A stretch of 64,000 nucleotides of DNA from Pseudomonadales bacterium. Its GTDB lineage: Bacteria; Pseudomonadota; Gammaproteobacteria; Pseudomonadales; Azotimanducaceae. The translations under genes and the position numbers were made by a program. Positions 31,721 through 63,944 of this stretch are shown here, piece by piece; the stretch's first letter is position 1, and each line of letters begins with the position of its first letter. The notes below the pieces were generated by a model. That model saw only the letters and a list, made by a program, of their open reading frames with translations, made no database searches and was not told the DNA's origin. The stretch is from the NCBI GenBank assembly GCA_028285415.1, contig JANQPF010000008.1, forward strand, positions 1 to 64,000, written 5' to 3'.

Positions 31721-32392
31721 ATGCGCTGGCATAGCGAAGAGGCCACGTTGTCGATACTGCAGGACACCATCGATGAGGATGCTGCGGTGGCGATGAGCAC
31801 CGTGGGCGACTACCGCGGGCACCTGTTGCCCGGCGAATCGGAAACCATGGGGCGCATGGCCGAGGTGCGCCAACTCGGATTTTCCAGCGGTCGTCATTGC
31901 GCGCATCTTGCGCAGGGCTTGCTTGGCCTGACACCAGAGAGCGTGCTCAGAGAAGAGCGGGTTCCCGTATGGCCGGCAGGCAGCGTCGGCGCCATTACCC
32001 ACAGCGACGATATTGCCGCCGCTGTCGCCTCGACGACGCATCAGGGTGTCGGTATCGATGTCGAGGCGACGGGCAGGGTGGATGAGAGTATGTACAGAAT
32101 TCTCTTTACCGCCGAAGAACAGGCGGAGTTAACGCGGCTCGCGCAGGCAGTCGACGAGCCGGACACGCTGATGTTTTCTGCCAAGGAAGCCGTGTACAAA
32201 GCAATTTATCCAACCGGCAGGAAGTACATCGGCTTTCGCGAAGTTGAGGTTCATCTGAATCCCGACCGGCGGATCTTCACGATGAGCTATCTGGGTGAGC
32301 ACGCACCAAACCAGGCGATGACCCGCGGCATCGGTTACTGGACCACCGGCGTCGGCCACGTCCTCACGCTCTTCTTCATTCCGCGGGTGTGA
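31721..32392 (+). CDS. 4'-phosphopantetheinyl transferase (EntD/Sfp type)
   Basis: 223 residues. FSSGRHCAHLA, GAITHSDDIAAAVAS (CoA-binding His), GIDVEATGRVDE (Mg-binding Asp-x-Glu) and FSAKEAVYKAIYP (W/F-x-x-KEA motif) are the four signatures of EntD-like transferases. It moves phosphopantetheine from CoA to the serine of carrier domains. It is the only such gene here, and two proteins with carrier domains (39671-42982 and 59607-62168) need it. The last 17 bases overlap the convergent threonine aldolase gene. Confidence 0.92.
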   Translation: MRWHSEEATLSILQDTIDEDAAVAMSTVGDYRGHLLPGESETMGRMAEVRQLGFSSGRHCAHLAQGLLGLTPESVLREERVPVWPAGSVGAITHSDDIAAAVASTTHQGVGIDVEATGRVDESMYRILFTAEEQAELTRLAQAVDEPDTLMFSAKEAVYKAIYPTGRKYIGFREVEVHLNPDRRIFTMSYLGEHAPNQAMTRGIGYWTTGVGHVLTLFFIPRV

Positions 32393-42600: not shown

Positions 42601-42982
42601 TCAGGAACGCGGTTTCAATGTCATCAACAAGGATCCGCTGAATATCTGTCGTATCCTCGCAGCGGACAATTACGAAAATGAGGTGTCCTCTTGCGAGGAG
42701 CCTGCGCTTTTGTGCAGAGCGTTAGGAGAAAGCCGGACCCGTCGCGAAATTGAGCCGTCACTAGGCTGGATTGCACACATTGCGAAGCTGACAGTCGTTG
42801 ACTGCCCCGGCGATCACTTCGGAATGCTTGCGGAGCATCACGAAGACGTCGCAGCGGCGATTCGCACTTATATTTCCAACCAAAGCCGTCCTGATAGGCC
42901 GGTGTTTGCCACCAGCTCAGAGCCCTCGAATGGCGCACGAGCAAGCCTTTCCGACGTTAGCATCAAATTTCGTAGCGAATGA
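39671..42982 (+). CDS. Single-module NRPS: partial condensation, adenylation, carrier, thioesterase
   Basis: 1103 residues from TTG at 39671 (AAGGAA ten bases upstream). Residues 1-265 resemble only the C-terminal half of a condensation domain; HHxxxDG is absent. Adenylation domain about 270-760: IYTSGSTGAPKG (400-411), NIYGPTETTIC, YKTGD, GRSDNQVKLRGYRIEIGEVEA, NGKIDR. Carrier domain FFDNGGNSLLA with phosphopantetheine Ser788. Thioesterase GFSYGGMVAYELA with nucleophile Ser925. By eye, pocket residues begin D-A-F as in GrsA-like DASVW, but I cannot name the amino acid. Probably releases a modified or dimerised amino acid. The phosphopantetheinyl transferase at 31.7 kb would arm it. The 3' end overlaps a convergent TonB-dependent receptor gene by 20 bases. 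Confidence 0.88.
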   Translation: MVDLDTKQVDPTYFSPWKERPDPQAIALYGQTIEPNTQKEDLHWTMRELDTELSALVRQQIAAQGIVPSVFWTAITSAWMARVSEQTTLQLLTCEHDWRLQNKKIDSFATYLPLVIDTAGNPRLDEIVERVAADRELMVQCAPESLPNSAGFGPVRCSYSRITTFDQTESSAKAFADTEPAIASVAIDVLESGPNWPLQIRFGFDAHIFEPQQQETAVRHYLRMLEGLLADHARLHSIPLVTPEECHGLAGPGPEQEVDHLLDQLQVWVQSTPAAPAVRQEDTIISFAELDFRARRYAAALRASGVGSGDRIAVCLYRTTELVAAMVGTFYAGATYVPIDASNPGARKRKIIADAEPSLIILDAQTKLEFPEDMTVVSLEDELPPPMEGTGARDKSSYMIYTSGSTGAPKGVCVGHSSLANQLQAMRSRIAFRPSDHLLAVTTTAFDASVFELCFPLWCGACVEIISDAQRRDPKYIAARLDEGNVSAMFATPATWHMLIASGWSGQNPSFQVICGGEALSRQLADDLLERAHKVWNIYGPTETTICSTVADVKSDHAVVPLGDPIAHTTLRILNEQMQLVPQGVVGELYIGGAGVGEGYYRQPELTAERFLNDPFDPEQRLYKTGDIVRLEAGNKLIYLGRSDNQVKLRGYRIEIGEVEAALQSLPEVKRAVVVMQGEVLQERFLHGFVEVSSELDHGEALHRLNDLIPGYMVPKLLTTVTELPITTNGKIDRQRLISDASTAIPATTSGGDLPQSDLEVKVAQVWRETLQLDSARDSNFFDNGGNSLLAVNLLSALEERIGGHISFREFYEDPTIRGLASYIDRTTGNIGPDTPVLLNDCPNKTATPLYCIDGVHLYQSLAKSLQSDLPVYGVYSNDEQQMLANVIAGNGVDNFPSPADLASRYYKILRKFQPQGPYRLAGFSYGGMVAYELARMLRGSGAEVDALILLDTPLMRSIERSRGWLHLTKHNTRIRLQERGFNVINKDPLNICRILAADNYENEVSSCEEPALLCRALGESRTRREIEPSLGWIAHIAKLTVVDCPGDHFGMLAEHHEDVAAAIRTYISNQSRPDRPVFATSSEPSNGARASLSDVSIKFRSE

Positions 42983-46870: not shown

Positions 46871-47992
46871 CTAGGCCCAAGGCATCGGTTCGACGGGATC
46901 AAAACTGGTCGTCAGCCGGTAGGAGCCCGTGTCAAATGCATTGGATATGGCCAGGGTCAGCTCGTTCACGTGCAGACAGAAGCGAGCTGATAGCCTGTGC
47001 GGTCGGTTTTCCTGTATCGCCGCAACCATATCGGCGACGCCCCGCAAGAAATCCATTCTCGCCGCACCGGTATCCTGAATCTTCGATGCGCCCCCGCGCA
47101 ACAGAGATACCTTCCGCCGCCACGGCGTCTCAAAGGTCCGTCTACGAATGGTCATTCTCTGCGTGCGGTAGACGGGCGAGTCATAGTGCCAGGTGTCTTT
47201 GACAGACAGAGTGCCATTGTCTGCAAAGACACGAACTGTGTGGTCATGCGGTGCGATTATGCTGCACGTGAGCCTGGCAACAACGCCGGAAGCAAACTGG
47301 ATGCAGGCAACGGAAAAGTCAGGCGCGTTGACGTCAAGCGGTTGCTCCGTCCCTTTATCGGGGATCAGGCATGACGAAAAAGCAGTCACTCGCTCCGCAG
47401 GCCCAAATATGCCTGCCAGCCAGGTTAGAGAGTAACCAGCGTGCTCCATCGTACAACCGACTTCAAACTCGTCTTTGTACGGCCACGGCACGCCAAGATC
47501 ATTCACCCATTGGTCATAACGCATTTGGTGGACCATCCCATCGTCCATCTCCGCGTAGACGAGTCGCGCAGGACCTGCAAGCTGCTCTCTAACCGCCTTG
47601 GCAAGCGTCTGCGCGGATTCAGACAGGAAGTTGCAAGGGGCTGAAGAAAGCCTCAGTCCTTTTGACTCTGCCAGCGTCACCAGCTCAGTGGCCTCATCCA
47701 TTGCCATGGCCAGCGGCTTTTCAGAGTAAACGTGTTTACCGGCGAGCAGGCAGGCTTTGCTGATTTCAAAATGACTGCGGGGGTTGGTCAAATTCAGGAC
47801 CAACGGGATCTGTGGATCATCCAAAATCGATGACAGCGTTTCCACACGGTTGATCCCAAACTTTCCGGCAAGTCGGGACGCCCTTTCAGGGACTAGGTCA
47901 CTCAAGGCGGCGCACTCAAGCTCAGGATAGTGTTTCAGTGCGGTCAGGTAGAAGTTTGCGACGAAGCCGCTACCAATGATTGCGAATCGCAT
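46871..47992 (-). CDS. Gfo/Idh/MocA-family oxidoreductase
   Basis: 373 residues. Rossmann start MRFAIIGSGFVANFYLTAL, LNLTNPRSHFEI, YSEKPLAM with the conserved Glu-Lys-Pro of the active site, and a C-terminal alpha/beta domain. It acts on sugars or nucleotide sugars with NAD(P). It begins two bases after the stop of the glycosyltransferase gene (AAGGA site in the last codons), so it is the last gene of a minus-strand operon. A run of eight T on its coding strand follows the stop without a clear stem. Confidence 0.85.
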   Translation of the reverse strand: MRFAIIGSGFVANFYLTALKHYPELECAALSDLVPERASRLAGKFGINRVETLSSILDDPQIPLVLNLTNPRSHFEISKACLLAGKHVYSEKPLAMAMDEATELVTLAESKGLRLSSAPCNFLSESAQTLAKAVREQLAGPARLVYAEMDDGMVHQMRYDQWVNDLGVPWPYKDEFEVGCTMEHAGYSLTWLAGIFGPAERVTAFSSCLIPDKGTEQPLDVNAPDFSVACIQFASGVVARLTCSIIAPHDHTVRVFADNGTLSVKDTWHYDSPVYRTQRMTIRRRTFETPWRRKVSLLRGGASKIQDTGAARMDFLRGVADMVAAIQENRPHRLSARFCLHVNELTLAISNAFDTGSYRLTTSFDPVEPMPWA

Positions 47993-47994
47993 AG

Positions 47995-49248
47995 TTATCC
48001 TTGCTGCTGCCCTGTGCCTAATTCATCTGTCGACGTCTGCATGAGCTCGCCGTGAGATGCCTGAAACAATTTGGCTAGCTTGCGCGTTTCGATGGAAGGA
48101 TTGTGTTCACGTGCGATAGCACTGGCACCATCACAACCCATCGCAGTCAACTGCGAAGGTGGCGCCTCGAGTAATTCCCTCATCGCCGATGCGGTGGCCT
48201 CAGACGAACCGGCCGGAATCAGCCAACCGTTGACGCCCGGTACAACAAGCTCAGGAATACCCGCAACGTAAGTACTGATAACAGGGCGACCTAATGCGAA
48301 GGCTTCCATAATAACGACCGGTAGTCCTTCTGCGAAGCTCGGCAGGACCATGCCGCGGCACTCGCGCAGGTGTTGCTTTATCTGATCCTCGGTAGCCCAG
48401 CCGGCTAATTCTATTTTGTCATCAAGATTGTAGGCCGTGACAAGACGCTCAATGTCTCCCCGCAATGGACCATCACCAATGAGACGAAGTTTAAAATCCA
48501 CGCGCTGCTCATCAAGCATTCGAGCTGCTTCGATCAGCTGGAGATGCCCTTTCTGTTCACCCAGGCGGCCAACGTTAACCAGCATGTTGCTGTCGGGCAC
48601 CGGTGAATCCTGTCCGAGAAAATCTTCGTCGACGACGCAATGCACAACGTGGATTTTCGACCAGTAAGTATGGTTTACCAAACGAAATGCCTGGCTTCGC
48701 GCAAACGAAGATATGACGGTAACGAAGGCTGCACGTTTTATCTTGTAATCCAGATTCAACGCATGAGGCATGTCCCACTCGAGGGGGCCATGAATCATAA
48801 AGCTATACGGGGGGCCTCCGAGAGAGTTACAAAACATGGCAACAGCAGTGGAGTTTGTGCCGAAGTGAGAATGCACGTGGGTGATACCAAGTTCCCTGCA
48901 CCACCTGGCAGCTATGCAAGCTTCGAGTACGTATACGAAGTATACAAAAACGCCACGGTCAGACCTCCAACCGGTACGCAAAGCGAGCAGGAGTGTTTGC
49001 ACCATCTTCAGCGGTCGCTGTAAGAATACGAGGAAAAAACTCAGTAAGAGGCCGACAACTCCTTGTGCCAGAACAAACCTGGTTTTCTTAATCTCGTCCA
49101 CGTCTCTTTCGTCCACCAGGTCGTATTCTGAGCTTCGGATGGAAAATCGAGCGACGTCGATTCCTTGCGCTTCGAGCCCGACTATCTCCCGACGAATGAA
49201 CGTACAGCTGATATACGGATACTGATTCAGCAGATAACCTATTTTCAT
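47995..49248 (-). CDS. GT4-type glycosyltransferase
   Basis: 417 residues. N-terminal half with ITHVHSHFGTNS and a hydrophobic stretch about 66-85; C-terminal GT-B half with NVGRLGEQKGHLQLIEAARML, LRLIGDGPLR and the E-x7-E motif in PSFAEGLPVVIMEAFALGRPVI. It is a retaining transferase using a nucleotide sugar at the cytoplasmic face, probably for the exopolysaccharide. Its start overlaps the stop of the upstream Gfo/Idh gene (ATGA), showing coupling. The opening MKIGYLLNQYPYISCTFIRREI is typical of WcaL/colanic-acid-like transferases. Confidence 0.88.
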   Translation of the reverse strand: MKIGYLLNQYPYISCTFIRREIVGLEAQGIDVARFSIRSSEYDLVDERDVDEIKKTRFVLAQGVVGLLLSFFLVFLQRPLKMVQTLLLALRTGWRSDRGVFVYFVYVLEACIAARWCRELGITHVHSHFGTNSTAVAMFCNSLGGPPYSFMIHGPLEWDMPHALNLDYKIKRAAFVTVISSFARSQAFRLVNHTYWSKIHVVHCVVDEDFLGQDSPVPDSNMLVNVGRLGEQKGHLQLIEAARMLDEQRVDFKLRLIGDGPLRGDIERLVTAYNLDDKIELAGWATEDQIKQHLRECRGMVLPSFAEGLPVVIMEAFALGRPVISTYVAGIPELVVPGVNGWLIPAGSSEATASAMRELLEAPPSQLTAMGCDGASAIAREHNPSIETRKLAKLFQASHGELMQTSTDELGTGQQQG

Positions 49249-50345
49249 GATGCTCCCGGGAACTCAAGACCAATAGTGTCCCTCACGTTGTCCAGTGTCT
49301 GGAGAATTTCAATAGATTCCGCGAGCGGCATCAGGCCGCTTTCTGTCTCACCGGCACGAATGCAGCGCATCACCTCCGCGGCCTCGTAATTCAGACCATT
49401 CCCCCGAAACGGTTCTGCCAGCACCTTCGAATTCACGTCAAAGCTCCCAAGTTTTGCATGCAGAATCTGAGCGACATGATTGCTTCGAAGGCGCTTTTTG
49501 ATATTCGTCACGAATCCACCGGCGTCTGGGCTTTCTGCTGGCTCGTGAGACGAAGCTTGGGAAATCCTGTGCGACCGAAAGAACGGGTTGTGGAGTTTCA
49601 AGTGACCTTTTGATCCGAGAATCACAGCCTCATTCGGTGTGTTGGTGGTAAGCGACGCGCTCACGGTGGCCAAACAGCCACGATTGTAGCGGCACACGAG
49701 CGCAGATTGTTCATCAACACCGGTCTCGCCAATGTTACTGAGCGCCACTACGTCGTCCGGGCTACCCATCAGAAACGAGATGAGCGACAACCCGTAAACG
49801 GCTCTGTCGAGCAGGGCGCCACCGCCTTGTCCCAGGTCGAAGTGTCGTGAGTCAGGGTCGTAGTGAGTCGCAACCCCGAAGTCGATATTGATCATCTGAA
49901 CATCCCCGATCACACCGCTCTCGATCAGTTGTTTCACTCGCAGGGTTGCGGGAATGAATCGCATCCACATTCCTTCCATACAAAACACACCTCGAGCTTG
50001 TGCGACATCGACAATCTGTCGCGCCTCGAGGCTATCCAGTGCAAACGGTTTTTCGCACAACACAGCCTTATCAGCCTGCAAACAGGTGATACAGACAGAT
50101 TTGTGCTGGTGGTTGGGTGTGGCGACATAGACAACGTCGATATCGTCGTCTGCGACGAATTGCTGAATATCGTGATAGCCCGATTCAGCATCAAATTGCT
50201 GGGCAAATTCGGCAGCCTTAGCCGCGGAGCGGGAACAAACGGCCGCCAATCTTGCATCAGGAAGGAGCTTCAGATCGTGGGCAAAATCAACCGCCGCCTG
50301 GCCTGTACCAACAATACCCCAACGGACGCACTGCGAACTTTCCAT
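49245..50345 (-). CDS. Gfo/Idh/MocA-family oxidoreductase
   Basis: 366 residues. VRWGIVGTGQAAVDFAHDL, VYVATPNHQHKSVCI, LCEKPFALD and EGMWMRFIPATLRVKQLIESGVIGDVQ match the trans-1,2-dihydrobenzenediol / 1,5-anhydrofructose reductase branch of the family. GAGG lies about six bases ahead of the ATG. It overlaps the glycosyltransferase gene by four bases. With the second Gfo/Idh enzyme it could reshape a sugar precursor, for example an oxidised or aminated one. Confidence 0.85.
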   Translation of the reverse strand: MESSQCVRWGIVGTGQAAVDFAHDLKLLPDARLAAVCSRSAAKAAEFAQQFDAESGYHDIQQFVADDDIDVVYVATPNHQHKSVCITCLQADKAVLCEKPFALDSLEARQIVDVAQARGVFCMEGMWMRFIPATLRVKQLIESGVIGDVQMINIDFGVATHYDPDSRHFDLGQGGGALLDRAVYGLSLISFLMGSPDDVVALSNIGETGVDEQSALVCRYNRGCLATVSASLTTNTPNEAVILGSKGHLKLHNPFFRSHRISQASSHEPAESPDAGGFVTNIKKRLRSNHVAQILHAKLGSFDVNSKVLAEPFRGNGLNYEAAEVMRCIRAGETESGLMPLAESIEILQTLDNVRDTIGLEFPGAS

Positions 50346-50560: not shown

Positions 50561-51706
50561 TCAGATATGGGTGTTCGAGGTGCGAGAAAAGCGTCGCTTG
50601 AGTCGTAAAAACCAGGACTCGAAGTAGCGGAAGCTGAGCTCCGCGGCGAGGACCGAAGCACCCAAACCAAGAACAAATTTTGCCAGGGGGGAATAGAAGT
50701 TCATAAAGTACAGCACCGATTCAACCGCATGAAGTGCGTGAGTATGAAAAATATAAACCCCGTAGCTCACGAGACCAATTCGAACCACAAGCCGGTTGCG
50801 CAGCAGTGGCATCAGAATATGGTCTTCCCGCACGACACAACTGCCGACAAACGCGAACATTATCAAATGAATGGACAATCGATGCAGGCCGCTGATATCA
50901 GAATTGGGAATCGACGCGATTACAAACAGTGCTACCAGCCACAGTGTCGACGCGTAACGGTGGAAGAAGAGCGCACGAAACAGGTTGAACTGATTGCGGT
51001 CATGCAACAGGTGAGCAAGCAAAACGCCCAACAGGATGGGTGTAAAGGTGACCTGCACGATCGCTAACTCACTCAACTCGGCATAGCCAAGCCAATCACC
51101 GATAGCGGCTCGAGTATCTGGAAAATTGAACAGCTGATTGAAGCTGATCGCCACGATCATGATCGGTAGAAACAGATGTGACAGATAGCGTTCGACTTGT
51201 GGCCATACGAGATAAAACTGTTCCTCCGCAGCCAACGACCAAACAACCGTCCAACCGATTACGAAAAAATTTCCCGTATAAGTCAGATATATCCAGATGT
51301 CCTGTACAAACGTCTTACCCACGTTAGAGCTGGGATTAACAAACAAAAAGTAGGCGAGGAGCAGGAACACCATTCCATAGTAGAGAGGGAATATCCGCAG
51401 TGAGCGCCGGATATAAAAGTTTCGGATACTTATGTCACCGTTGGCAGATTTTTCCCGCAGCAGAAGCGTGACAATCAAGAAACCGCTGATAACGAAGAAC
51501 AGGTCAACCCCGAGAAACCCTCTTGAACTGATAGGCAGGTAATCTACAAACGGCCCCGAGTGATGCCAGACGACGGAGACGATAGCGAGGCACCGCAACG
51601 CATCAAGCGCGCCGAACGACTTCTGCTCAAGAAAAGCGGCATGGGCCCTGTCGTCGTTTTCGCCGCTTGCCAACAACCGAGCTTGTTTTTGCGAGTGAGA
51701 AAGCAA
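50561..51706 (-). CDS. Acyltransferase-3 (OafA/YrhL-like) membrane O-acyltransferase
   Basis: 381 residues from TTG at 51706, the only start before the domain. LDALRCLAIVSVVWHHSGP holds the Arg and His signature, GFLGVDLFFVISGFLIVTLLLRE follows, then NFYIRRSLRIFPLYYG, and about ten membrane segments in all. It moves an acyl group, usually acetyl, to a sugar hydroxyl across the inner membrane. The 215 bases between it and the downstream Gfo/Idh gene hold nothing I can call. Lies at the head of a minus-strand polysaccharide operon. Confidence 0.87.
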   Translation of the reverse strand: MLSHSQKQARLLASGENDDRAHAAFLEQKSFGALDALRCLAIVSVVWHHSGPFVDYLPISSRGFLGVDLFFVISGFLIVTLLLREKSANGDISIRNFYIRRSLRIFPLYYGMVFLLLAYFLFVNPSSNVGKTFVQDIWIYLTYTGNFFVIGWTVVWSLAAEEQFYLVWPQVERYLSHLFLPIMIVAISFNQLFNFPDTRAAIGDWLGYAELSELAIVQVTFTPILLGVLLAHLLHDRNQFNLFRALFFHRYASTLWLVALFVIASIPNSDISGLHRLSIHLIMFAFVGSCVVREDHILMPLLRNRLVVRIGLVSYGVYIFHTHALHAVESVLYFMNFYSPLAKFVLGLGASVLAAELSFRYFESWFLRLKRRFSRTSNTHI

Positions 51707-53207: not shown

Positions 53208-53350
53208 TTCGCATTGTCTGCAGACAACGGTTAGGCAGGGATAGTGTAGCTCTAGGCATCGGATTGACAAGACAAGTCTTGTTGGACTCACTGTGATTCT
53301 GCCATCGCGACTTGAATGGGCGTGCGGGTCAACTAGACAGAGGGCATCAA

Positions 53351-54352
53351 ATGAATCCAAATATCCAAAGTTCCAGCGAGTGGCCTGCGCTATTTGAAGC
53401 TAGCGAACAAGCAGATCTATCTTCGTTCGTTGCCGAGAATTCGCAGGAAGTCGAACAAGCACTCGAGAATGACGGCATTGTGCTTTTTCGCGGTTTTTCA
53501 GTTGGCGACGCCGACGACTTCGACCGATTCGTCAAGGCCATATCCACGGCGCGAATGGACTACGTCTATGGCTCGACCCCACGTACCGCCGTAGGCAACA
53601 AAATCTTCACGGCGACAGAATATCCTGCCAACAAAGAGATACCCCTGCACAGTGAAGTTTCTTATCACACCGAGTGGCCGCTCAGGCTTGCGCTTTGTTG
53701 CATCGTCCCAGCATCAACCGGGGGAGCCACTCCGGTGGCGGATTTGCGCAAAGTGACGACGACGCTGGGCGAGGAATTCGTCAATACGTTCACGGAACGT
53801 AAAGTCCGTTACGTCAGGCACTATCACCCCCACATCGACGTTCCGTGGCAGCAAGTGTTCCGCACGGATAGCAAGAAAGAAGTAGCCCGTTTCTGCACGG
53901 CAAACGCGATAGATTTCGAATGGTTGGACAATGAGGTGCTCCGCACGTCTCAGATTTGTCAGGGCACAATTGAACACCCGAAAACGCAAGAAATCTTCTT
54001 TTTCAACCAAGCGCACCTTTTCCATATCTCAGGAATTGAAGCGGACAAAGCCGAGGCCATGCGGGAGATGTTCGGCGAGTCTATGCTGCCGCGAAACGCA
54101 TACTTCGGGGACGGCGAAGAAATCCCGGCCGAAGCAATCAGGAAGATTGCTGATGCATACGAGTCTGCGGCGGTTGACCTCAACTGGCAACAGGGAGACG
54201 TTGCGCTCCTGGACAATCTGAGAGTCGCACACGGGCGCAGGACATTCACAGGCGAACGGCGGATCCTGGCGGCCCTGATGGATCCTTCAATCGGAGAGCG
54301 TTTTCCTCTACCGCGTTCCACGCAGAAGAAATCCTGGTGGAAAATCTGGTGA
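53351..54352 (+). CDS. TauD/SyrP-like Fe(II)/2-oxoglutarate dioxygenase
   Basis: 333 residues from ATG at 53351. IVLFRGFSVGDADDFDRF, PLHSEVSYHTEWPLRLALCC with the metal-binding His-x-Glu, GGATPVADLRKV, FFFNQAHLFHIS, WQQGDVALLDNLRVAHGRRTFTGERRILAAL with the distal His and the 2-oxoglutarate Arg. Close relatives in NRPS pathways, such as SyrP, hydroxylate an amino acid while it is bound to a carrier protein. Here it sits inside the polysaccharide genes, 13 bases before the flippase, so a product linked to the glycan is suggested. Its substrate could be an acyl on the carrier of the 59607-62168 protein. Confidence 0.85.
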   Translation: MNPNIQSSSEWPALFEASEQADLSSFVAENSQEVEQALENDGIVLFRGFSVGDADDFDRFVKAISTARMDYVYGSTPRTAVGNKIFTATEYPANKEIPLHSEVSYHTEWPLRLALCCIVPASTGGATPVADLRKVTTTLGEEFVNTFTERKVRYVRHYHPHIDVPWQQVFRTDSKKEVARFCTANAIDFEWLDNEVLRTSQICQGTIEHPKTQEIFFFNQAHLFHISGIEADKAEAMREMFGESMLPRNAYFGDGEEIPAEAIRKIADAYESAAVDLNWQQGDVALLDNLRVAHGRRTFTGERRILAALMDPSIGERFPLPRSTQKKSWWKIW

Positions 54353-54365
54353 TCCGGACTCTAAT

Positions 54366-55760
54366 TTGAAATCCGCCCCAACAAGCAGGACTGCAGCGAA
54401 CGAGGCGCAACACACAGAAGCCGCAGACAGAATGACGATTGGCAACCGTATTCTGAAAGGTACTTTGTCGGTTCTCGGCGGCGATGCGTACGGACACATT
54501 CTACGCCTGATCGCCAACCTGATAATGACCCGGCTGTTGATGCCGGAAGCCTTTGGCTTGCTTCTCATCGTCAATCTCGTCCAGGGTGCTCTGCAGATGC
54601 TCTCGGATGTGGGGATAAGGGGGGCGCTGATAACAAAACGGGATTTCCTCGACGACGAGTACATCGATACCGCCTGGACAATTTCAATTATCCGAGGAAT
54701 TGCGCTATGTGTCGTAGGCATGCTAGTCGCTTTACCGGTTGCGTATTTCTACTCAGAACCCCAGCTCACGGGATTGCTGCTGTTATCTTCCGTTGCCCCC
54801 TTGCTTACCGGCTTCTGCTCACCGTTTCCAATTCTTGAAGAAAAGAAGGTAAAGCTCCTCAGGGTGATTGCTTGGAAATCACTTGCTCAAACCGTCGCGG
54901 TCGTAGCTACGATCGTCTGGCTCCTCATTCACCCAACCGTTTGGGCGCTGGCAGCAAACGGAGTAATCAGCGCGCTCGTGCTTTCCGTCAGTTCTTTCCT
55001 TTTTTTCCGGAATCGCATGCCGAAGTTAACGTGGAACCGGGAGGCCGTCAGAGCGATTGTCCAGTTTGGGAAATGGGTCTTCTTGGCAACCGCACTCACA
55101 TTTTTTGCCAGGCACGCCAATCTTTTCATCATGAGCAAATGGGTGACCACAAGCGTTTTGGGCGTCTTTAGCATCGCCGTAGGTCTGGTCAAGCTCGTGG
55201 AGAACGTACCTTCAAGTATCACCTTCTCGCTGTTGTTGCCCGTATACGCGGAACTCGGAAAGGGCGAAGAAGCTGAGCTCCACAAGCATCGAATCAGAAT
55301 CAAGGTTGCACTGTTCGGCCTGGCCGTCGCCCCCGTCGTCACGCTGTCCGTCTTCGGCGCGGAAATAATATCGCTCCTCTATGCTGAGGAGTACCATAGC
55401 GCTGGGTGGATGTTAGAAGTCATGTCCGTTGGAAGCCTGGCACTCATTCTAAGTGCTTCAGTCGAGAACATCCCACACTCCCTCGGCAACTCGTATCTGC
55501 ATATGTGGCTCCAATTCTACCGTGGTGCCCTGATGCTACTGAGCATGTGCATTGGCGGACTATGGTTTGGGCTCACCGGATTGATCATCGGGATCAGTGC
55601 TGGGTCCTTTGTGTTTCTTCCAGTCCTTTCCTATTTGGTTAGGCAATATGGGATTCGCGACTACGTCTTGGATATCTCCCTGATCTCCGGCGGACTAGGC
55701 TTGATCTACCTGGGTTGGTGGACGTTCGGTTTTCCTGTACAGACGATCAGTAGCGGGTGA
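54366..55760 (+). CDS. Wzx-type polysaccharide flippase (MOP superfamily)
   Basis: 464 residues from TTG at 54366; ATG at 54432 (MTIGNRILKG) is an equally good start, as neither has a clear ribosome site. About 12-14 membrane segments. ILKGTLSVLGGDAYGHILRLIANLIMTRLLMPEAFGLL and SDVGIRGALI are typical of the PST/O-antigen exporter group. It moves a lipid-linked oligosaccharide or the chain precursor across the inner membrane. Its end overlaps the next glycosyltransferase start (GTGA). Confidence 0.88.
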   Translation: MKSAPTSRTAANEAQHTEAADRMTIGNRILKGTLSVLGGDAYGHILRLIANLIMTRLLMPEAFGLLLIVNLVQGALQMLSDVGIRGALITKRDFLDDEYIDTAWTISIIRGIALCVVGMLVALPVAYFYSEPQLTGLLLLSSVAPLLTGFCSPFPILEEKKVKLLRVIAWKSLAQTVAVVATIVWLLIHPTVWALAANGVISALVLSVSSFLFFRNRMPKLTWNREAVRAIVQFGKWVFLATALTFFARHANLFIMSKWVTTSVLGVFSIAVGLVKLVENVPSSITFSLLLPVYAELGKGEEAELHKHRIRIKVALFGLAVAPVVTLSVFGAEIISLLYAEEYHSAGWMLEVMSVGSLALILSASVENIPHSLGNSYLHMWLQFYRGALMLLSMCIGGLWFGLTGLIIGISAGSFVFLPVLSYLVRQYGIRDYVLDISLISGGLGLIYLGWWTFGFPVQTISSG

Positions 55761-57028
55761 GTCAAGTGAATCTCGAGACGGAAGAAAGACACGATCCCAT
55801 TGAAGTCATTCTGGTTGCCGAAAACGCGTCCGCAGAGTTCGGCGGTGAGTCCATCCTGCCGTTACACTACTTCGTCCGGCTCCATCGGAGGGGGGTACCG
55901 GTGAAGTTAGTAGTGCATGAGCGGGTACGGGAGGAGCTTGCTGAGCACCACCCAGATTTAATGGGCTCAATCGAGTTCATAGACGACAATTGGCTGCAGG
56001 TAGGACTAAACGCGTTAGGCAAGCTCCTGCCTTTGAGATTACGCGACCACACAGTGCTTGTTCTCATTTCATTTTCCACCGCCCGCCGCCAGCGTCAGGC
56101 AGTTAAGAGATTAGTGTCGTCTGGCTTCGGCGACATCATTCACCAGCCAACCCCGGTTTCGCCGCGAGCGCCGTCCTTCATGTACGGATTCGGCAAGCCG
56201 GTCATTATTGGGCCTGTCAACGGGGGTATGGACTATCCTCCTGGTTTCAAGCGACTTGAAACCAGGCTCGAAGGTTTGGTTTTGAAGCTGGGCCGCCAGG
56301 CGGCAGTGATGTTGAACACGCTGATCCCCGGCAAACCCAATGCAGCGCTGGTCCTTGGCGCCAACGAGCGCTCTTTGCAAGCTCTGCCGGACAACTGTAG
56401 CGATCAGCGCGAAATAATGGTGGAGAACGGTGTAGATCTTGCACTTTGGCAAATCCCTGAGCATTCAAATTCCAATGAAGACCGCGTCTCGTTTGTTCAC
56501 CTGGGAAGGTTGATAGAACTCAAGATGGTTCACATACTTGTCCAGGCACTAGAGCTCGTTGAAGAAAACATCGTTCTTGAAATCATTGGAGACGGGCCAG
56601 AGAAAGACCGCCTGGAAACACTTGCCCAAGAATTGGGCGTGTCTGAGCGAGTAAGGTTCCATGGGTTTTTGCCGCAACGCGAATGCGTCGCACACATCCA
56701 GTCATCGCGCGCTTTGTTACTTCCCAGCGTGCGGGAGTGCGGTGGTGCTGTTGTGCTCGAGGCCATGGCATGTGCACGCCCGGTAGTCGCGACAAACTGG
56801 GGCGGACCAACCGATTATCTGGACGAGGCTTGCGGTATTCTCGTTGACCCCGACTCAGAACCTAGTATGATCGCGGCGTTTGCGGACGCTATGAAGAAGC
56901 TGGCCGCAGATGAGCACTTAGCGAAGACGTTGGGTGGGTCTGGCCGAATGAAGGTCGAACGCGACTTTGATTGGAATAAGAAGATCGACGCCATCATTGC
57001 AAAGTATTCAACATTGGCTGGTAAATAG
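55757..57028 (+). CDS. GT4-type glycosyltransferase
   Basis: 423 residues from GTG at 55757. GT-B fold with IEVILVAENASAEFGGESILPLHYF at the start, PVNGGMDYPPGFKRLETR, FVHLGRLIELKMVHILVQALEL, IGDGPEKDRLETLAQELGVSERVRFHGFLPQ, and the nucleotide-sugar motif SVRECGGAVVLEAMACARPVVA. Cytoplasmic retaining transferase building the repeat unit. Overlap with the flippase gene shows coupling. A short inverted repeat lies 20 bases after its stop. Confidence 0.88.
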   Translation: MSQVNLETEERHDPIEVILVAENASAEFGGESILPLHYFVRLHRRGVPVKLVVHERVREELAEHHPDLMGSIEFIDDNWLQVGLNALGKLLPLRLRDHTVLVLISFSTARRQRQAVKRLVSSGFGDIIHQPTPVSPRAPSFMYGFGKPVIIGPVNGGMDYPPGFKRLETRLEGLVLKLGRQAAVMLNTLIPGKPNAALVLGANERSLQALPDNCSDQREIMVENGVDLALWQIPEHSNSNEDRVSFVHLGRLIELKMVHILVQALELVEENIVLEIIGDGPEKDRLETLAQELGVSERVRFHGFLPQRECVAHIQSSRALLLPSVRECGGAVVLEAMACARPVVATNWGGPTDYLDEACGILVDPDSEPSMIAAFADAMKKLAADEHLAKTLGGSGRMKVERDFDWNKKIDAIIAKYSTLAGK

Positions 57029-57254: not shown

Positions 57255-58352
57255 ATGAAGTATTTGGAATTTCTAGTGGTGACCCTGGTCGCCATTGCAG
57301 TAGCAAATTTTGCCTACGCGGCACCATCAAATCCCCCTGAGGTAAACTGCAATGGAGATTGCGTCACGGAATTCGACTACGACCTCAGTCGTTTTTCGAT
57401 ACCGTTTCCTGTCAACTGGGCAGCGCAGCCTGTTACAAGCTCGACAATCGATATTGCTCCCGGTGATGGTGCCGGTCTGCGCGCCGCCATTGGCGTACAG
57501 GGAGCCAGGATCAACGTTCCAGCCGGAACGTACAATACGAGCTTGCCGAACGGAGCATGGGCGTCAGACGTAGACCTGGTGTTTGCGCCGGGCGCTGTGG
57601 TGAACGGCGACGTTGTGATCGGCAGCGGCTTACCAAACTCTTCCAGACCAGAAAGAATTCGAATAACAGGTGGTTCGTTTTTCGGTAGCTCATTCGGACC
57701 CGAGCACCTGAACGATCTCACGCTGAATGACGTCTACGTGGAGTTGACCACCGGGGCGAACAATTGGACAAGTCCCGGCGACGGAGTAAATACGAATTGG
57801 GAACGCATTACGGTCATTAACAGCACAATCAGTGTTTTGGACAATGCGTCGAGCACCTCCGGTTGGACAATCCTGTTGGGCGCACCCGCGAGCAACCCAC
57901 CGCCGATGGCCCACACGGATCTGATCATTGCGGGTTCGCTCCTGAAATCCACAGATCAGGTCAGCCGGATCAACAACATAACTCGACTGATCATCGTAGA
58001 CTCTATGTTCAAGGCCCTGAACGGCAGTTCCAGCTTCAGACGCGAACAATCGACACACGACATGTTCTGGGGAAATTCGGTTTTCAGAGGGGCAATACAG
58101 GGTAATGCCGGTATGCCATCTTCTGGTTTGCACATGGACGGAGTAGATCACTACCACGCTCTGAACAATGGCGTAACCAACGTCATGGCAGGCAGCAGCG
58201 GTTCTACGGCAAACAATGTGACCATACATGATTCGGGCTCCGGACCCTTTGGCTCAATCGGCATTTCGCCTGCTACGGGATCGAACAATAGGAGCGTTTC
58301 CTGGGATGGCTCTTCGTTACCGAGTGAATCCTCGTATGGTGCCAACCGCTGA
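57255..58352 (+). CDS. Secreted right-handed parallel beta-helix protein
   Basis: 365 residues. Signal peptide (1-22, ending AYA), then a body of short repeated beta turns typical of pectate-lyase/right-handed beta-helix folds (ARINVPAGTYNTSL, VNGDVVIGSG, IRITGGSFFGSS, HLNDLTLNDVYVEL, ERITVINSTISVL, NITRLIIVDSMFKAL). It could cut or modify the exported polysaccharide as a lyase or epimerase, as AlgG/AlgL-type proteins do in alginate loci. No catalytic set is evident. GAGGGA is eight bases upstream. The reading frame continues after its TGA into the next protein without a break. Confidence 0.72.
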   Translation: MKYLEFLVVTLVAIAVANFAYAAPSNPPEVNCNGDCVTEFDYDLSRFSIPFPVNWAAQPVTSSTIDIAPGDGAGLRAAIGVQGARINVPAGTYNTSLPNGAWASDVDLVFAPGAVVNGDVVIGSGLPNSSRPERIRITGGSFFGSSFGPEHLNDLTLNDVYVELTTGANNWTSPGDGVNTNWERITVINSTISVLDNASSTSGWTILLGAPASNPPPMAHTDLIIAGSLLKSTDQVSRINNITRLIIVDSMFKALNGSSSFRREQSTHDMFWGNSVFRGAIQGNAGMPSSGLHMDGVDHYHALNNGVTNVMAGSSGSTANNVTIHDSGSGPFGSIGISPATGSNNRSVSWDGSSLPSESSYGANR

Positions 58353-58394: not shown

Positions 58395-59579
58395 CTGGCA
58401 AAGAACGCACTCACCGCAATCGTAGTCTGCGCTCTTTGCCTCGTTCTTGCCGAGCTACTGTTACGGTTCGTTTATCCGTTGGGTAACACCATCTACCGTT
58501 TGAACGAACAACACTTTCAAGAACATATACCCGGACAAAGCAAAGTCTACGTCCATTTACCGGCCAACGGCGGGAATAGGATAAGGGTCGACATTAACTC
58601 GGACGGCTTCCGGGGGCCTGAGCTGCTCGGTGACGGATTGAAACCGAGGCTGATGGTTTATGGCGATTCTTTTACAGTGGCTGAGTATTCAGAACTCGAA
58701 GCGTCCTTTCCCGCGATGCTGGCGCAAGGACTCGGCAATGAGGTTGAAGTAGTCAATGCAGGCGTAGTCGGACTGGGCCCAGATCAAATCAGTCTTCGAC
58801 TAAGAACCGAATTGCAACAACACTCTCCCGATTTTGTCGTGCTGCTGGTCTTCAGCGGCAATGATCACGGCGACTTAATCAGGAACAAGATTTACCAACT
58901 GGATGCTCAAGACCACCTGGTTTTGCGTAATGCAAGAGTAAGCGAAGACCTGGCACGCGAGTTCTCTCGTACGGGTATGGCAGGCTTTGCACTCGGGCGC
59001 CTGGTTAAACGGGCTTCTACATCAGTACCGAGGCGTTTCTTCAATCAAGCAACCGAGGACCGTGAAAGTCCGTTTGGGAACAGCGAAGATTTTTATGAAC
59101 GCCTGATTCGGATCGCGCAACTGGAATTCGAAGCGTACAACTCAGAACCCACAAACGTCACAAACCTGTTCAACGACGGGTATGACGCAGACATTGCGCT
59201 GAAACCCGAGGCCGCTTCCGCCAAATACAAGCGTAGGTTGATGTTCGCCGTATTGAGTGAAATCCAGCGAACAGTGCAACGATTCAACGCGGAAATTCTG
59301 ATCGTGTCAGTGCCAGCGCCGCGCGACCTCATACCGAACTACGATGGGCTGAACATAGATGTCGCCAAGTGGCCCGACTACGCGCCAAACAGGCTGGCCG
59401 ATGAAGTCTGTTCAGGATTGGATCCTTCGATCTGCATCAGCCTCTTTGATCTGTTTGCAGCACGCGATAGTTCCGCTTTGTATTTCAAGGGGGGGAATAA
59501 TCATTGGAACGATCTCGGACAAGCAGTTGCGGCTGAATATGTCACCCCCCATATCGCAGAAGCCCTGAATCTACGCTGA
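58395..59579 (+). CDS. Membrane-anchored SGNH/GDSL hydrolase-like protein, irregular start
   Basis: About 394 residues. Block I VYGDSFTVAEYSE (Ser nucleophile), NAGVVGLGPDQI, FSGNDHGD (block III, Asn-Asp) and GGNNHWNDLG (catalytic His; the usual Asp three or two residues before is Asn/Gly). Such SGNH proteins (AlgX/AlgJ-like) acetylate polysaccharides. An N-terminal membrane segment (NALTAIVVCALCLVLAELLLRFVYPL) is clearly coded ahead of the first ordinary start (TTG at 58479). CTG at 58395, with GGGGG six bases upstream, is the best start for it. The frame is the same as that of the beta-helix gene and is open back to its stop at 58350. Confidence 0.72.
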   Translation: MAKNALTAIVVCALCLVLAELLLRFVYPLGNTIYRLNEQHFQEHIPGQSKVYVHLPANGGNRIRVDINSDGFRGPELLGDGLKPRLMVYGDSFTVAEYSELEASFPAMLAQGLGNEVEVVNAGVVGLGPDQISLRLRTELQQHSPDFVVLLVFSGNDHGDLIRNKIYQLDAQDHLVLRNARVSEDLAREFSRTGMAGFALGRLVKRASTSVPRRFFNQATEDRESPFGNSEDFYERLIRIAQLEFEAYNSEPTNVTNLFNDGYDADIALKPEAASAKYKRRLMFAVLSEIQRTVQRFNAEILIVSVPAPRDLIPNYDGLNIDVAKWPDYAPNRLADEVCSGLDPSICISLFDLFAARDSSALYFKGGNNHWNDLGQAVAAEYVTPHIAEALNLR

Positions 59580-59606: not shown

Positions 59607-62168
59607 TCAATAGTAAATTTTGTATACCCTGACCAGGATATAGGCCATAGAGACAAAGAAAAGTGACATCGAAATTGTCAGGGCGCCCGGAACATGGAGA
59701 GCCATCAACAGGTCTTTAAGCGGTATAACAAGTTCATGCCCGATGAAGAGTGGGAACGCCATAATACCCACGATCGACATGACCTTCAGGGCAACATCTG
59801 TAAACCGGCTTCGATCGTCTGCCATTGCAAGATTAAAAACAATGTGAGTACAGGCGAGCACGAAGCCGGTATAAACCACCCACATCCAGACGTAAATTGG
59901 CTTCGGCCAGACCATCCAAGTCTCCAAATGACCAAACCTGATCGACAACACGAAACCGGCTAGCATGAGCAGCAAGCCGATAGCAAAACTGTTCCCCGGG
60001 TTGTCGTGTTCACTCACAACACCGCGCAACCAGTAGCCAAGCGCTAGACCAATCAGCACACCCGTCGAGATCTCGAAATAGTTGAACTTCGCGGTCAACA
60101 GCAGGATTCCTGTTTGCAGGATAGGGTTGGCAGAGGGTTCAGGAGCCCAAACCAGGACCAGTTCGTGAATCAGGTAGAAAACCAGAGCCAGAAAGAGCGT
60201 TGCAATGACAAACGAGCGTGCACGAGTCAGCCAGGAGAGCCAGATGGGAATGCTCAGTACCGCCAGCATGTAATACATAAGTACACCCCAAAAAGCATTT
60301 GAGTAATCAACCGGTCTCATCGGCTGATCCCCCAATAGATCGCCAGTAATCCGCACAGCTGCTAACACTACTATTCCCGCTAGCAACAGCAGAGCATTGC
60401 GGATTACCAACGAGTTGACAGATTCGCGACTTCTCATAAATCGGGGTAAGTACGCAAATCCGACCCCAAGCCCGAAAACTACGGCGAAACCAGGTGTCCC
60501 TCCGCTGTAGAAGAACGACAGCAGTTTGTTTGCGTCTGCAATGCCAGGTATCCGTTCTACCACTCCCGGCATCCAATGCGAGGCGACGACGAACAGAGCC
60601 AGCATTCCGCGAACGGCGTCTATTGACTGGCTGGTCGCAGCCAGCGGCTGCTTTTCCATTGAATCCGCTGAGCTGTCCACAATCTGGGCAATTGTGACCC
60701 CCTCAAATATCTGGCGGGATACTTCTCGCGGAATGCCGCTCTTCTCCATGCGGATAGCAACGTTGATAGCGGACAGTGAATCGCCTCCCAAATCGAAAAA
60801 GCTGTCGTGAGGAGAAACAGGTCGGATTTGGAGTACTTCTTCCCACAAGCTCACCAATTCGGCAATTCTTGGATCTTCGTGGCCCGCCGCCGGCGAATCG
60901 ACGGCAATCTTGTGATCTTCCCCCTCCTCAGCAAGATAGAGATCACTCACGCTCGAGCGTCGCACTTTGCCTGTTTCAGTCACAGGAAACGATTCCACCG
61001 CTAACGTTTTGAGGCTATGCCCAGGTTCAATACCGATGCCGTGAAGTGCCTCGGCAGCAGCGCTTTTGACCGCGGTGGCATCAACATCGGGCAAGTGCGC
61101 AATCAGGATCCCGTCACCTCGAACTGGATCTGGAATCTTCGCCACCGAGAGCGCGCCGGAGACCTCCAACTGATTACTCAATTGGGTCTCCAGGTAGTCC
61201 GGAGACACTTTGACTCCCGCGCAGTTTATCAAGTCGTCCGCGCGTCCCTCGTAGTACAAGTACCCATCTTCAATGCGTCCGAGGTCGCTCGTCACGAGCC
61301 ATCCGTCGTCGTCCGTCAAGCGTATCTGCTCTCCACCGACGATTGAGGTCATCGCGAGGTGAGGCCCCCTAATCAAGATTCTGCCGTCATCGCGTATTCG
61401 TACTTCGACGCCATCTTCTGCTTTGCCAACCGACTCCAGCCGCTCTTCGCCGGTATTTTGCACATCGAGAAAGGTTGTCCGGGAAGCTTCCGTCAAACCG
61501 TAATGCTGCACAATCCGTGCGTTCGGAAACAGCGCTCGGACCTGCTTCTTCTCCTCCGCGCTCATGTACTGACTACCTATCTCGATCCACAGTACGCTTC
61601 CACCGACTTCCTCAAAGAGCGCGGCATTCTGGAGGAGCACGCGCCACAACGAAGGTACGGCAGAAATTGCGTTGATTTCCTTACGCTGAAGCATCTCACT
61701 GAGTTCGAGGGGGTCGAACCCGCGATTCGGTATGTATACCTCCCCACCTGCTTGTAACACCGCACGGCATCGGCCGAAGCCGAATGAGTAGTAGACTGGC
61801 ACACCAACGTACTCTCGTATGCGCTCATCGATTTTCATCTTGCTAATGAGGCGATCCGTTGAATTGGCCAGAGCGCTGTGACTGATCAATACCGGTTTAG
61901 GCTCACCTTCGGTGCCCGAGGTAAACTGAATCTGTCCTACTTTGGAACTATGCTGAGGTTCATAGCGCGGACTGCTTATCCAACCCGTTGTATCATTTGG
62001 ATTCACGACTTCGTCAGGTTCGACCATATTGTGCCGCTCATCGTCGTCCTCTCGTCTCAGAGTGACGATCGCCTTGCCCTGATTGAGACATTCAATCGCC
62101 GAGGCGATAAAATCGCAGCTATTGGTTGCGACAATCCCGGTGACCGAATTCCCGATACGAGCAGCCAT
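59607..62168 (-). CDS. Tripartite adenylation / carrier / acyltransferase-3 membrane fusion protein
   Basis: 853 residues. Adenylation domain 1-410: QFTSGTEGEPKPV (81-93), HYGLTEASRTT, TSDLGRIEDGYLYYEGRADDLINCAGVKVSP, and ETGK with catalytic Lys401; about 40 N-terminal residues of the usual fold are missing. Carrier domain about 430-505: FFDLGGDSLSAINV with Ser464. From 515 an acyltransferase-3 domain with DAVRGMLALFVVASHWMPG (Arg520, His531) and about ten membrane segments to the end. Domains for activating, carrying and transferring an acyl group thus lie in one chain, as DltA, DltC and DltB do separately for D-alanyl teichoic acid. AAGG lies six bases before the ATG. Substrate unknown. Confidence 0.9.
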   Translation of the reverse strand: MAARIGNSVTGIVATNSCDFIASAIECLNQGKAIVTLRREDDDERHNMVEPDEVVNPNDTTGWISSPRYEPQHSSKVGQIQFTSGTEGEPKPVLISHSALANSTDRLISKMKIDERIREYVGVPVYYSFGFGRCRAVLQAGGEVYIPNRGFDPLELSEMLQRKEINAISAVPSLWRVLLQNAALFEEVGGSVLWIEIGSQYMSAEEKKQVRALFPNARIVQHYGLTEASRTTFLDVQNTGEERLESVGKAEDGVEVRIRDDGRILIRGPHLAMTSIVGGEQIRLTDDDGWLVTSDLGRIEDGYLYYEGRADDLINCAGVKVSPDYLETQLSNQLEVSGALSVAKIPDPVRGDGILIAHLPDVDATAVKSAAAEALHGIGIEPGHSLKTLAVESFPVTETGKVRRSSVSDLYLAEEGEDHKIAVDSPAAGHEDPRIAELVSLWEEVLQIRPVSPHDSFFDLGGDSLSAINVAIRMEKSGIPREVSRQIFEGVTIAQIVDSSADSMEKQPLAATSQSIDAVRGMLALFVVASHWMPGVVERIPGIADANKLLSFFYSGGTPGFAVVFGLGVGFAYLPRFMRSRESVNSLVIRNALLLLAGIVVLAAVRITGDLLGDQPMRPVDYSNAFWGVLMYYMLAVLSIPIWLSWLTRARSFVIATLFLALVFYLIHELVLVWAPEPSANPILQTGILLLTAKFNYFEISTGVLIGLALGYWLRGVVSEHDNPGNSFAIGLLLMLAGFVLSIRFGHLETWMVWPKPIYVWMWVVYTGFVLACTHIVFNLAMADDRSRFTDVALKVMSIVGIMAFPLFIGHELVIPLKDLLMALHVPGALTISMSLFFVSMAYILVRVYKIYY

Positions 62169-62362: not shown

Positions 62363-62381
62363 ATAGTTGCAAAGTAAATTC

Positions 62382-63944
62382 ATGAACGATCTGTTGAACG
62401 AAATCCTGGGTTTGCTGAAGAAAGCATGGCGCTTTCGGTGGTGGGGTTTGGCCGCTGCTTGGGCATTTTGTATGGTCGGCTGGGCCGTTGTGAGCATGCA
62501 GCAACCGGTTTACGAGGCCTCCGCGCGAGTCTACGTAGATACCAAATCTATGCTGCGAGCACTGTTGGATGAGCAAATTGTCGATACAACCCTGGACGAA
62601 CAGCTGGGCTTCGTACGTGAAGCCATGCTGGGATCTACGCAACTCGAAGTCATTGCCCGCGAGGTAGGATTCATCGATCAAACATCAACGTCGAATGAAA
62701 TAGTCAGCGTAGTCGGCTCGCTACAGAGGACGATCCGGATATCAAGCCTCAACGATTCGCTGCCACCAGGTCTTCGTCTTGCGCGTGCTCCCGCAGACGA
62801 TACTTACACGATCAGCTACGAAAACAACAACCCCGAAGTCGCAGCTGCCGTCGTGAAGAAGTTGCTCGAGGCTTTCGAGCGAGATGCAATCACCGGCAAG
62901 CGGACGAGTTCTGAACGGGCAGGGCAGTTTCTGCGTGAGCAAATCGCAACGTATGAAAGTCGCCTACGTGACGCTGAGACGAAGCTGGCGGCTTTCAATC
63001 AAGAGTACTACGACCGACTACCTAATCTGCAGGGCGGCTATTTCGCTGAGTTGCAAACGAAGACAGAAGAGTTGGCAGACGCACGTAAGAGTCTCAGTCT
63101 GGTGGAGTCGCGATTAAGCAACATAGAGCGTCAACTTCGGGGTGAAGCATGGGTAGTAGGCAGTAGTGCCGAGATTGATCCGGCAAGCACCGAGGGCAGA
63201 ATTCGAACCGCGCGAGCAAATCTCGACGAACTTCTTCTCCGATTCACCGATAGTCATCCTGACGTAAGGGCCCTGCGAGAAAACCTGGCAATCCTGGAAG
63301 AGAAGAAAATCAGGGAACTCGAGATGATAGGAGAGGGTGACGCAAACGTTCTCTCCAACAATCCCGTCTATCAAGCACTGCAGATCTCTAAAAACGAGGC
63401 AGAAGCGGAGATTGCGACTTTGCGTGCGGATGTTGGGGTCAGAGAAGCACGCCTTAACCACCTGCAGGGACTTATCAACGAAATGCCCAAAGTGGAGGCA
63501 GAACGTTCACAGCTGAATCGGGACTACGAAGTGATCAAAAGTCACTATCAGTCGCTACTGAATAACCTGGAACGGGAAAGATTGAGCAGTGAAGTTGTTG
63601 CCAGCGACGAAATCGAATTTCGCGTCATTGACCCGCCAGTTGCGCCGACCTCGCCAGTATCTGTCTTGCCGCATCTGCTCCATGCCGCTGTATTCATGGC
63701 CGGATTGGGCGGCGCCGTTGCACTAGCCATTCTGCTCGCCCATCTGAGGCCGGTCGTTTCTTCGTTGAGCGAATTGACTCAGATCATCGATGCACCTGTT
63801 CTGGGAGCGATCTCTCGCACTTCCACTGCATCGGTAGGGCTTCGAAACTCATGGTTCTATTTTTCTTCCGGATGTCTTGGGTTCGCATTCTTCGGGGTCC
63901 TTTACGCGGAAACGGCAGGAATGGGTCTGCGTGAAGTCTTCTAA
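62382..63944 (+). CDS. Polysaccharide chain-length determinant (Wzz/GNVR type, XrtA-associated form)
   Basis: 520 residues from ATG at 62382. N-terminal membrane segment (WGLAAAWAFCMVGWAVVSM), then YEASARVYVDTKSMLRALLDE, a signature of the XrtA (PEP-CTERM) exopolysaccharide chain-length proteins, a long coiled coil (about 180-410), the GNVR-like region (LNRDYEVIKSHYQSLLNNLERERLS) and a second membrane segment (LLHAAVFMAGLGGAVALAILLAHLRP). It sets chain length and couples to a tyrosine kinase and the outer-membrane export protein, both expected beyond the window edge. No exosortase gene is in the window. Confidence 0.9.
   Translation: MNDLLNEILGLLKKAWRFRWWGLAAAWAFCMVGWAVVSMQQPVYEASARVYVDTKSMLRALLDEQIVDTTLDEQLGFVREAMLGSTQLEVIAREVGFIDQTSTSNEIVSVVGSLQRTIRISSLNDSLPPGLRLARAPADDTYTISYENNNPEVAAAVVKKLLEAFERDAITGKRTSSERAGQFLREQIATYESRLRDAETKLAAFNQEYYDRLPNLQGGYFAELQTKTEELADARKSLSLVESRLSNIERQLRGEAWVVGSSAEIDPASTEGRIRTARANLDELLLRFTDSHPDVRALRENLAILEEKKIRELEMIGEGDANVLSNNPVYQALQISKNEAEAEIATLRADVGVREARLNHLQGLINEMPKVEAERSQLNRDYEVIKSHYQSLLNNLERERLSSEVVASDEIEFRVIDPPVAPTSPVSVLPHLLHAAVFMAGLGGAVALAILLAHLRPVVSSLSELTQIIDAPVLGAISRTSTASVGLRNSWFYFSSGCLGFAFFGVLYAETAGMGLREVF

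Follow-up and report, generated by a model that had tools for sequence, protein, structure and literature searches.

A one-chain fusion of adenylation, carrier and AT3/TmAT-like membrane domains as a candidate self-loading acyltransferase

Here we describe a gene fusion from a Pseudomonadales bacterium (Azotimanducaceae; assembly GCA_028285415.1), found in the first 64,000 nucleotides of contig JANQPF010000008.1 (hereafter the window), which combines in one polypeptide a compact adenylation domain, a carrier (thiolation) domain and a ten-helix membrane domain of divergent acyltransferase-3 (AT3)/TmAT type (Table 1). We consider it probable that this protein is a self-loading membrane acyltransferase, and advance the following mechanism of its action. 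A phosphopantetheinyl transferase would arm the carrier serine, Ser464, and the adenylation domain would convert a small free acid, one that lacks an alpha-amino anchor, into its acyl-adenosine monophosphate (acyl-AMP), from which the acyl group would be loaded as a thioester onto the tethered carrier arm. From the cytosol the arm might then bring the thioester into the ten-helix domain's pore, with R520 and H531 helping the acyl group to move onto a lipid-linked or polymerised glycan, at one of its hydroxyls or amines, on the opposite side of the membrane; Ser464 and R520 lie 56 residues apart, and the equivalent span is 50–89 residues across the 23 membrane-type proteins discussed below. With such a carrier-bound donor a free pool of acyl-coenzyme A (acyl-CoA) would not be required. 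Where a TauD-type dioxygenase gene adjoins the fusion or lies near it (3/28 loci), its product may additionally hydroxylate the carrier-bound acyl group. More tentatively, and with expectations a little short of even, we extend this to a self-loading, CoA-independent family, in which one adenylation–carrier engine is served by interchangeable tails, two of them membrane types that would move a protein-bound thioester through the membrane and one cytosolic, so that the TmAT pore would be threaded by the tethered carrier's phosphopantetheine arm in place of CoA.

The fusion gene is a single open reading frame with an ATG start and no internal stops, encoding both the SGTEGEPK adenylation motif (first residue 84) and the GGDSL carrier motif. 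Pfam matches place the AMP-binding domain at residues 39–273 (E 2.5e-31; profile positions 129–381 of 384), PP-binding at 437–498 (E 2.5e-9) and Acyl_transf_3 at 515–839 (E 5.8e-5; 22.7 bits, under the 31-bit cut-off). These matches bear out an earlier sequence-only reading of this DNA, which had proposed adenylation, carrier and membrane acyltransferase in one frame; its further claim of an AT3 signature with about ten membrane segments is matched by R520-X10-H531 and by the roughly ten helices of the AlphaFold2 model. Foldseek searches with the whole-chain model recover adenylation–carrier structures of non-ribosomal peptide synthetases (NRPS), including the adenylation–peptidyl carrier unit of McyG, along with MatB, MenE and DltA.

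Our comparisons cover 28 homologues of the adenylation–carrier front end, namely the window protein, six from a peptide scan, 14 from the order of G714 (Cognatiyoonia) and seven from the family of a Microbulbifer genome, with none dropped. The whole chain of the window type recurs in 16 other proteins, at 34–44% identity to the window protein in single-piece blastp alignments (two with extra carriers, treated below, align in pieces). These rule out a frameshift or misassembly, which had been named in advance as a possible undoing of the fusion; the companion worry, absence from related genomes, holds for the 145 nearest genomes, but the 16 proteins lie elsewhere. The adenylation N-terminus, flagged at the outset as oddly short, is indeed short, but not an oddity: SGT(E/T)G starts at residue 78–94 in 20/28 homologues (seven of the others have a longer reading frame, probably from a script choosing the most upstream start, and one, L039, has an unread base close to the start). 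Thus, the compact start is a family trait, and a truncated gene start is ruled out.

The most telling feature of this set is the exchange of its C-terminal tails. An acyltransferase-type domain stands behind the carrier in 28/28 homologues, and comes in three kinds: the window's divergent AT3-like membrane domain (type 1; 17/28); a different, clearer AT3 membrane domain (type 2; 6/28: loci L084–L088 and L090), which exceeds the Pfam AT3 cut-off in the four of four scanned, at 31.3 to 92.4 bits; and a soluble left-handed beta-helix resembling EpsC, CysE and WcaB (type 3; 5/28: L089 and L107–L110). Tails outside the Pfam scan were typed by alignment (L086, L088) or by eye (L108, L109). The EpsC, CysE and WcaB acyltransferases are stand-alone, CoA-dependent enzymes, whereas in these five relatives the beta-helix is fused behind the carrier and scores below the NCBIfam cut-offs of its best models, which are those same three; Hexapep repeats are found in 3/3 scanned, and one such tail retrieves serine acetyltransferases from the PDB at E 2e-16. 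Set against eight other AMP-binding sequences, the adenylation parts group as a single clade (support 99/99), and the tail labels require four changes on the tree with the outgroup, whose branches are long, the minimum possible being three. Three tails on one front-end clade cannot arise with fewer than two exchanges or independent fusions, and this swapping is our best evidence, from sequence comparison, that the tail would spend the carrier-bound acyl group. The carrier itself has also been duplicated: the protein from L042 (gene L042:9941–13351) has four carriers by Pfam and that from L044 (L044:9983–13237) has three GGDSL repeats, that is, three tandem carriers, with repeats inside one protein agreeing at 37–44 of 68 positions; the two proteins are 30–48% identical to the window protein in blastp alignments that fall into pieces.

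The soluble tails bear on a reading that departs from ours in the last step only, namely that the acceptor is a nucleotide sugar or lipid-linked unit acylated on the cytosolic side of the membrane, with the membrane domain anchoring and catalysing but not translocating. Five relatives with a beta-helix acyltransferase, expected to be cytosolic, in the same position speak for it, but the window domain resembles HGSNAT, which the available part of PMC12423673 describes as a transmembrane acetyl-transfer enzyme, and we regard cytosolic-face transfer as unlikely, if worth keeping in sight. In practical terms, the same engine could easily be tested free of any membrane in the soluble relatives, and the swapped tails point to a simple route to non-acetyl groups on bacterial glycans.

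For the proposed transmembrane transfer by the window protein, the structural evidence comes from its C-terminal 350 residues, which AlphaFold2, supplied with 16 of the 17 type 1 sequences, models as about ten long helices with a predicted local distance difference test score (pLDDT) of 92 and a predicted TM-score (pTM) of 0.90. Foldseek against the PDB ranks three chains of human HGSNAT first (query TM 0.53–0.56; E 0.036–0.14), the only fold at probability 1.00 among the 50 PDB matches listed; against viral models it returns one match at probability 1.00, which has no name. HGSNAT and the AT3 proteins are united as the TmAT superfamily in the part of PMC12423673 available to us. R-X10-H is present in 23/23 fused membrane domains, and the ten-helix fold, this motif and the transfer from a cytosolic donor to an outer acceptor are what the fusion would share with OafB, OatA and HGSNAT, as far as these are described in the available sources. 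MBOAT does not match the window protein and is missing from the families listed for the 16 tails, no search having been aimed at DltD. A stand-alone relative of the window membrane domain, at 27% identity, is encoded at L010, in the same class.

In the accessible text of a review, AT3 proteins are described as using acyl-CoA rather than acyl carrier protein (ACP) as donor (PMC9558356), and in OafB simulations, likewise as reported in the available part of the paper, R14 of R-X10-H and R74 of an RXXR motif touch the CoA 3'-phosphate (PMC9833829). The fusions differ here: the motif R-x-x-R-[IVLMA]-x-P of transmembrane helix 3 (TMH3) is found in 0/23 fused domains as against 8/8 stand-alone AT3s of these loci (the eight include the near copies L082 and L083). 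The missing TMH3 signature fits a donor without an adenosine 3'-phosphate, short of being proof. For the AT3/TmAT enzymes, the way in which the acyl group is received and passed through the membrane is an open question, which a natural fusion with a tethered donor makes directly testable: such a donor can be loaded, altered at a single serine and tracked by its mass.

At least one labelled polysaccharide or exosortase cluster accompanies the fusion in 16/17 type 1 loci, the window's among them, and in 4/5 beta-helix loci. The count takes only sequence clusters in which Pfam labels at least one protein (as GT4, Wzx, Wzz, Wzy-like or exosortase), on flanks whose lengths vary by locus, and L104 enters it on a Wzy-like cluster alone, with a Pfam score under the cut-off. 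Exosortase-cluster genes occur in L042, L079, L080 and L081, Pfam having been run on L081 only.

Several observations weigh against the proposed reading. At the sequence level, the window membrane domain by itself scores 26.5 bits against PF01757 (cut-off 31), the model is found in 4/16 type 1 tails at E<=0.1, whole-protein scans of L042, L104 and L106 give no AT3 match at E<=0.01, and hhalign aligns the membrane domain with stand-alone AT3s at 3.4% identity over 110 columns. The AT3 label given beforehand therefore stands on the modelled fold and R-X10-H but not on profile scores, and the assignment of the type 1 tail is weak by sequence. The whole-chain model (pLDDT 79, pTM 0.49) does not fix the docking of the domains. 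With respect to CoA, R-X10-H is retained throughout, its arginine being a CoA 3'-phosphate contact in the simulations cited above, and some R..R pair is present in the scanned stretch of 7/23 fused domains, the window's included; on these grounds a lost CoA site was dropped as proof that CoA is bypassed. As to the acceptor, labelled polysaccharide clusters are absent from L044, L107 and 5/6 second-type loci, and a second-type homologue on the Paracoccus zhejiangensis plasmid pPZ01 (L115) lies outside any polysaccharide locus, where the acceptor may be no glycan at all. The polysaccharide locus first claimed for the fusion is thus upheld for the window and its type, but a glycan acceptor does not hold as a rule across the family, 5/6 second-type loci lacking a labelled cluster.

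The retained arginine is also what an acyl-supply role would predict, in which the acyl group leaves the carrier to CoA or a separate enzyme, the front end merely providing acyl-CoA or acyl-ACP, and the membrane domain uses acyl-CoA as the characterised AT3 proteins are reported to do in the available text of PMC9558356. In line with this, the NCBIfam list for the window protein is headed by acyl-CoA ligase models (the best 25 of 96 are all far under their cut-offs). A pure supply enzyme, on the other hand, needs no fusion, let alone three kinds of acyltransferase-type tail behind the carrier, and the stand-alone TMH3 signature is consistently missing; we consider this role distinctly improbable.

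Returning to the proposed self-loading acyltransferase, the adenylation and carrier residues of its front end are intact. All 28 sequences keep D295, R309, K401 and the carrier serine, and 60 positions of the alignment are invariant (at most two gaps allowed), the SGT-G motif and K91 among them; as in NRPS-type adenylation–thiolation units, adenylation domain and carrier share a chain with the A10 lysine (K401) in 28/28. Every one of the 28 has motif A4 as P-x-x-x-S-F-G-x-x-R-x-R, with Asp in 0/28. In the NRPS code it is the A4 Asp that holds the amino group of an alpha-amino acid in place, and a pocket without it argues against an alpha-amino acid substrate, D-alanine included. S128, F129, G130, R133, R135 and R230 are invariant, and the three arginines may contact a substrate group that is polar or acidic; by sequence and fold matches, the closest acid-activating enzymes of solved structure include malonyl-, oxalyl- and 4-coumaroyl-CoA ligases. 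Although the PDB sequence matches are headed by linear gramicidin synthetase, DltA and NRPS adenylation–carrier units are among the fold matches, and three of the 20 plasmid matches listed for the window's TauD protein lie under condensation-domain annotations, we see little prospect, given the missing Asp, for an amino-acyl ester maker that would put an alanine- or glycine-like amino acid on a glycan as a functional twin of Dlt or Alm.

Known systems approach this architecture from several sides. In Dlt systems a free acid passes through an AMP ester to a phosphopantetheine thioester, from which a membrane acyltransferase decorates a surface polymer, with these roles on separate proteins. The Vibrio AlmEFG system for lipid A glycylation shows the adenylation–carrier–acyltransferase logic in a Gram-negative setting, again with three separate proteins and with glycine as substrate; AlmG belongs to a lipid A acyltransferase family, not to AT3. 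In Pls/PosA enzymes, adenylation, thiolation and transmembrane parts do share one chain, the membrane part making isopeptide homopolymers of diamino acids and not having the acyltransferase-3 fold. To our knowledge these three are nearest in logic, and none has the present set of parts. The fusion shares with Dlt an adenylation domain and a carrier with a 4'-phosphopantetheine serine, by Pfam and by catalytic residues conserved in 28/28, but differs in a membrane domain that is weakly AT3 and HGSNAT-like rather than MBOAT, and in a pocket without the amino-acid Asp. DltB, according to the available part of PMC12423673, is an MBOAT protein, a fold distinct from AT3/TmAT; the initial description as Dlt-like therefore survives for the logic but not for the membrane fold, and the fusion is Dlt/Alm-like in logic only. 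From known AT3/TmAT members it is set apart by its unconserved TMH3 motif and would also be set apart by their use of acyl-CoA, so far as the available sources describe them. The AT3/TmAT fusions named in the available parts of PMC9558356 and PMC12423673 involve SGNH, NRF and racemase (VanTG) domains, with no adenylation or carrier domain among these, and the string "adenyl" occurs in neither. We found no description of an adenylation–carrier–acyltransferase architecture in the literature searched, a search that mostly left out subscription papers.

Table 1. Features of the window that bear on the fusion gene
Feature	Coordinates	Strand	Basis
4'-phosphopantetheinyl transferase, candidate carrier activator	31721..32392	+	PF01648
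Two Gfo/Idh/MocA oxidoreductases and GT4 glycosyltransferase (block)	46871..50345	-	Pfam, sequence clusters
AT3 acyltransferase encoded on its own (usual RxxR motif), as a contrast to the fused domain	50561..51706	-	Pfam, motif
TauD/TfdA-type dioxygenase, possible on-carrier tailoring enzyme	53312..54352	+	Pfam, homologues
Wzx-type flippase and GT4 glycosyltransferase, polysaccharide context	54366..57028	+	Pfam
SGNH/AlgX-like protein, convergent neighbour of the fusion	58479..59579	+	Pfam, under cut-off
Fusion gene, 853 residues: adenylation, carrier, membrane acyltransferase	59607..62168	-	ORF analysis, Pfam
Ten-helix membrane domain (residues 504–853), divergent AT3/TmAT type, with R520 and H531	59610..60659	-	Pfam, alignment, AlphaFold2, Foldseek
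Carrier (thiolation) domain (residues 433–503)	60660..60872	-	Pfam PP-binding
Ser464 codon (GGDSL serine), predicted phosphopantetheine site	60777..60779	-	Serine invariant in 28/28
Compact adenylation domain (residues 1–415)	60924..62168	-	Pfam AMP-binding, 28-sequence alignment, Foldseek
XrtA-system polysaccharide chain-length determinant	62367..63944	+	TIGR03007, over cut-off

Around the fusion, the phosphopantetheinyl transferase matches PF01648, and no other such match was found in the genome (one candidate scored); AcpS was not found there either, possibly a limit of a first-look search. Near this gene, positions 36442–42982 hold two acyl-CoA dehydrogenases followed by a 1114-residue adenylation–carrier–thioesterase protein, making with it a separate small NRPS-like cluster; because this NRPS-like gene (39638–42982) is in the same region, the transferase may serve both it and the fusion. 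Members of the GT4 cluster and of both Gfo/Idh/MocA clusters are found again close to the fusion in L077, L078 and L081. The TauD-type gene is 5.3 kb from the fusion in the window and 11 bases upstream of it in L042, and in L044 it overlaps the end of the fusion gene and is split over two frames. Homologues at E<=1e-10 occur in 6/28 genomes (3/7 plus 3/21), in three of these on a contig other than that of the fusion, and the dioxygenase is ruled out as a general core partner by its presence near the fusion in 3/28 only; the condensation-domain annotations at its plasmid matches hint at a carrier-bound substrate. The SGNH-encoding neighbour is likewise rejected as an obligatory partner: the stretches retrieved for the other 27 loci contain nothing that matches it at E<=1e-5. 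Between the glycosyltransferase and SGNH genes, 57255–58352 encodes a 365-residue protein with a signal-like start, judged by eye, and without matches in Pfam (E<=0.1) or NCBIfam (E<=0.01).

The searches behind these counts were as follows. The peptide scan, with six exact short peptides against 84,980 genomes (one per species), gave six loci and is biased towards relatives that keep those exact peptides. Among the 146 nearest genomes only the window's own matches at E<=1e-30. In the class, 22/369 genomes match the carrier-plus-membrane query at E<=1e-6, only the window's own spanning both domains; in a phylum sample the same query matches 11/398, reaching the membrane part only in G714, the relative with four carriers, and the window, and the whole protein matches 2/398. 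The counts are 15/341 in the order of G714 and 9/144 in the Microbulbifer family. The window genome, at 5.97 Mb, compares with 1.6–5.8 Mb in 20 listed genomes of the same genus, none with the fusion at E<=1e-30. A plasmid search with the carrier-plus-membrane part retrieves nine records, none covering more than 30% of the query, and of 72,556 plasmid records three match at E<=1e-40, from Paracoccus, Novosphingobium and Neorhizobium. All three resemble the second tail type by eye and were kept out of the 28-sequence counts; the Paracoccus protein has no PF01757 match at E<=0.01. The genes beside this Paracoccus copy, at L115, encode encapsulin, a Dyp peroxidase, glycolate oxidase and gamma-glutamyltransferase. 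The Neorhizobium galegae copy (L117:7974–10193) is apparently broken, lying in two open reading frames with the break between adenylation and carrier domains, and the Paracoccus and Novosphingobium copies are uninterrupted.

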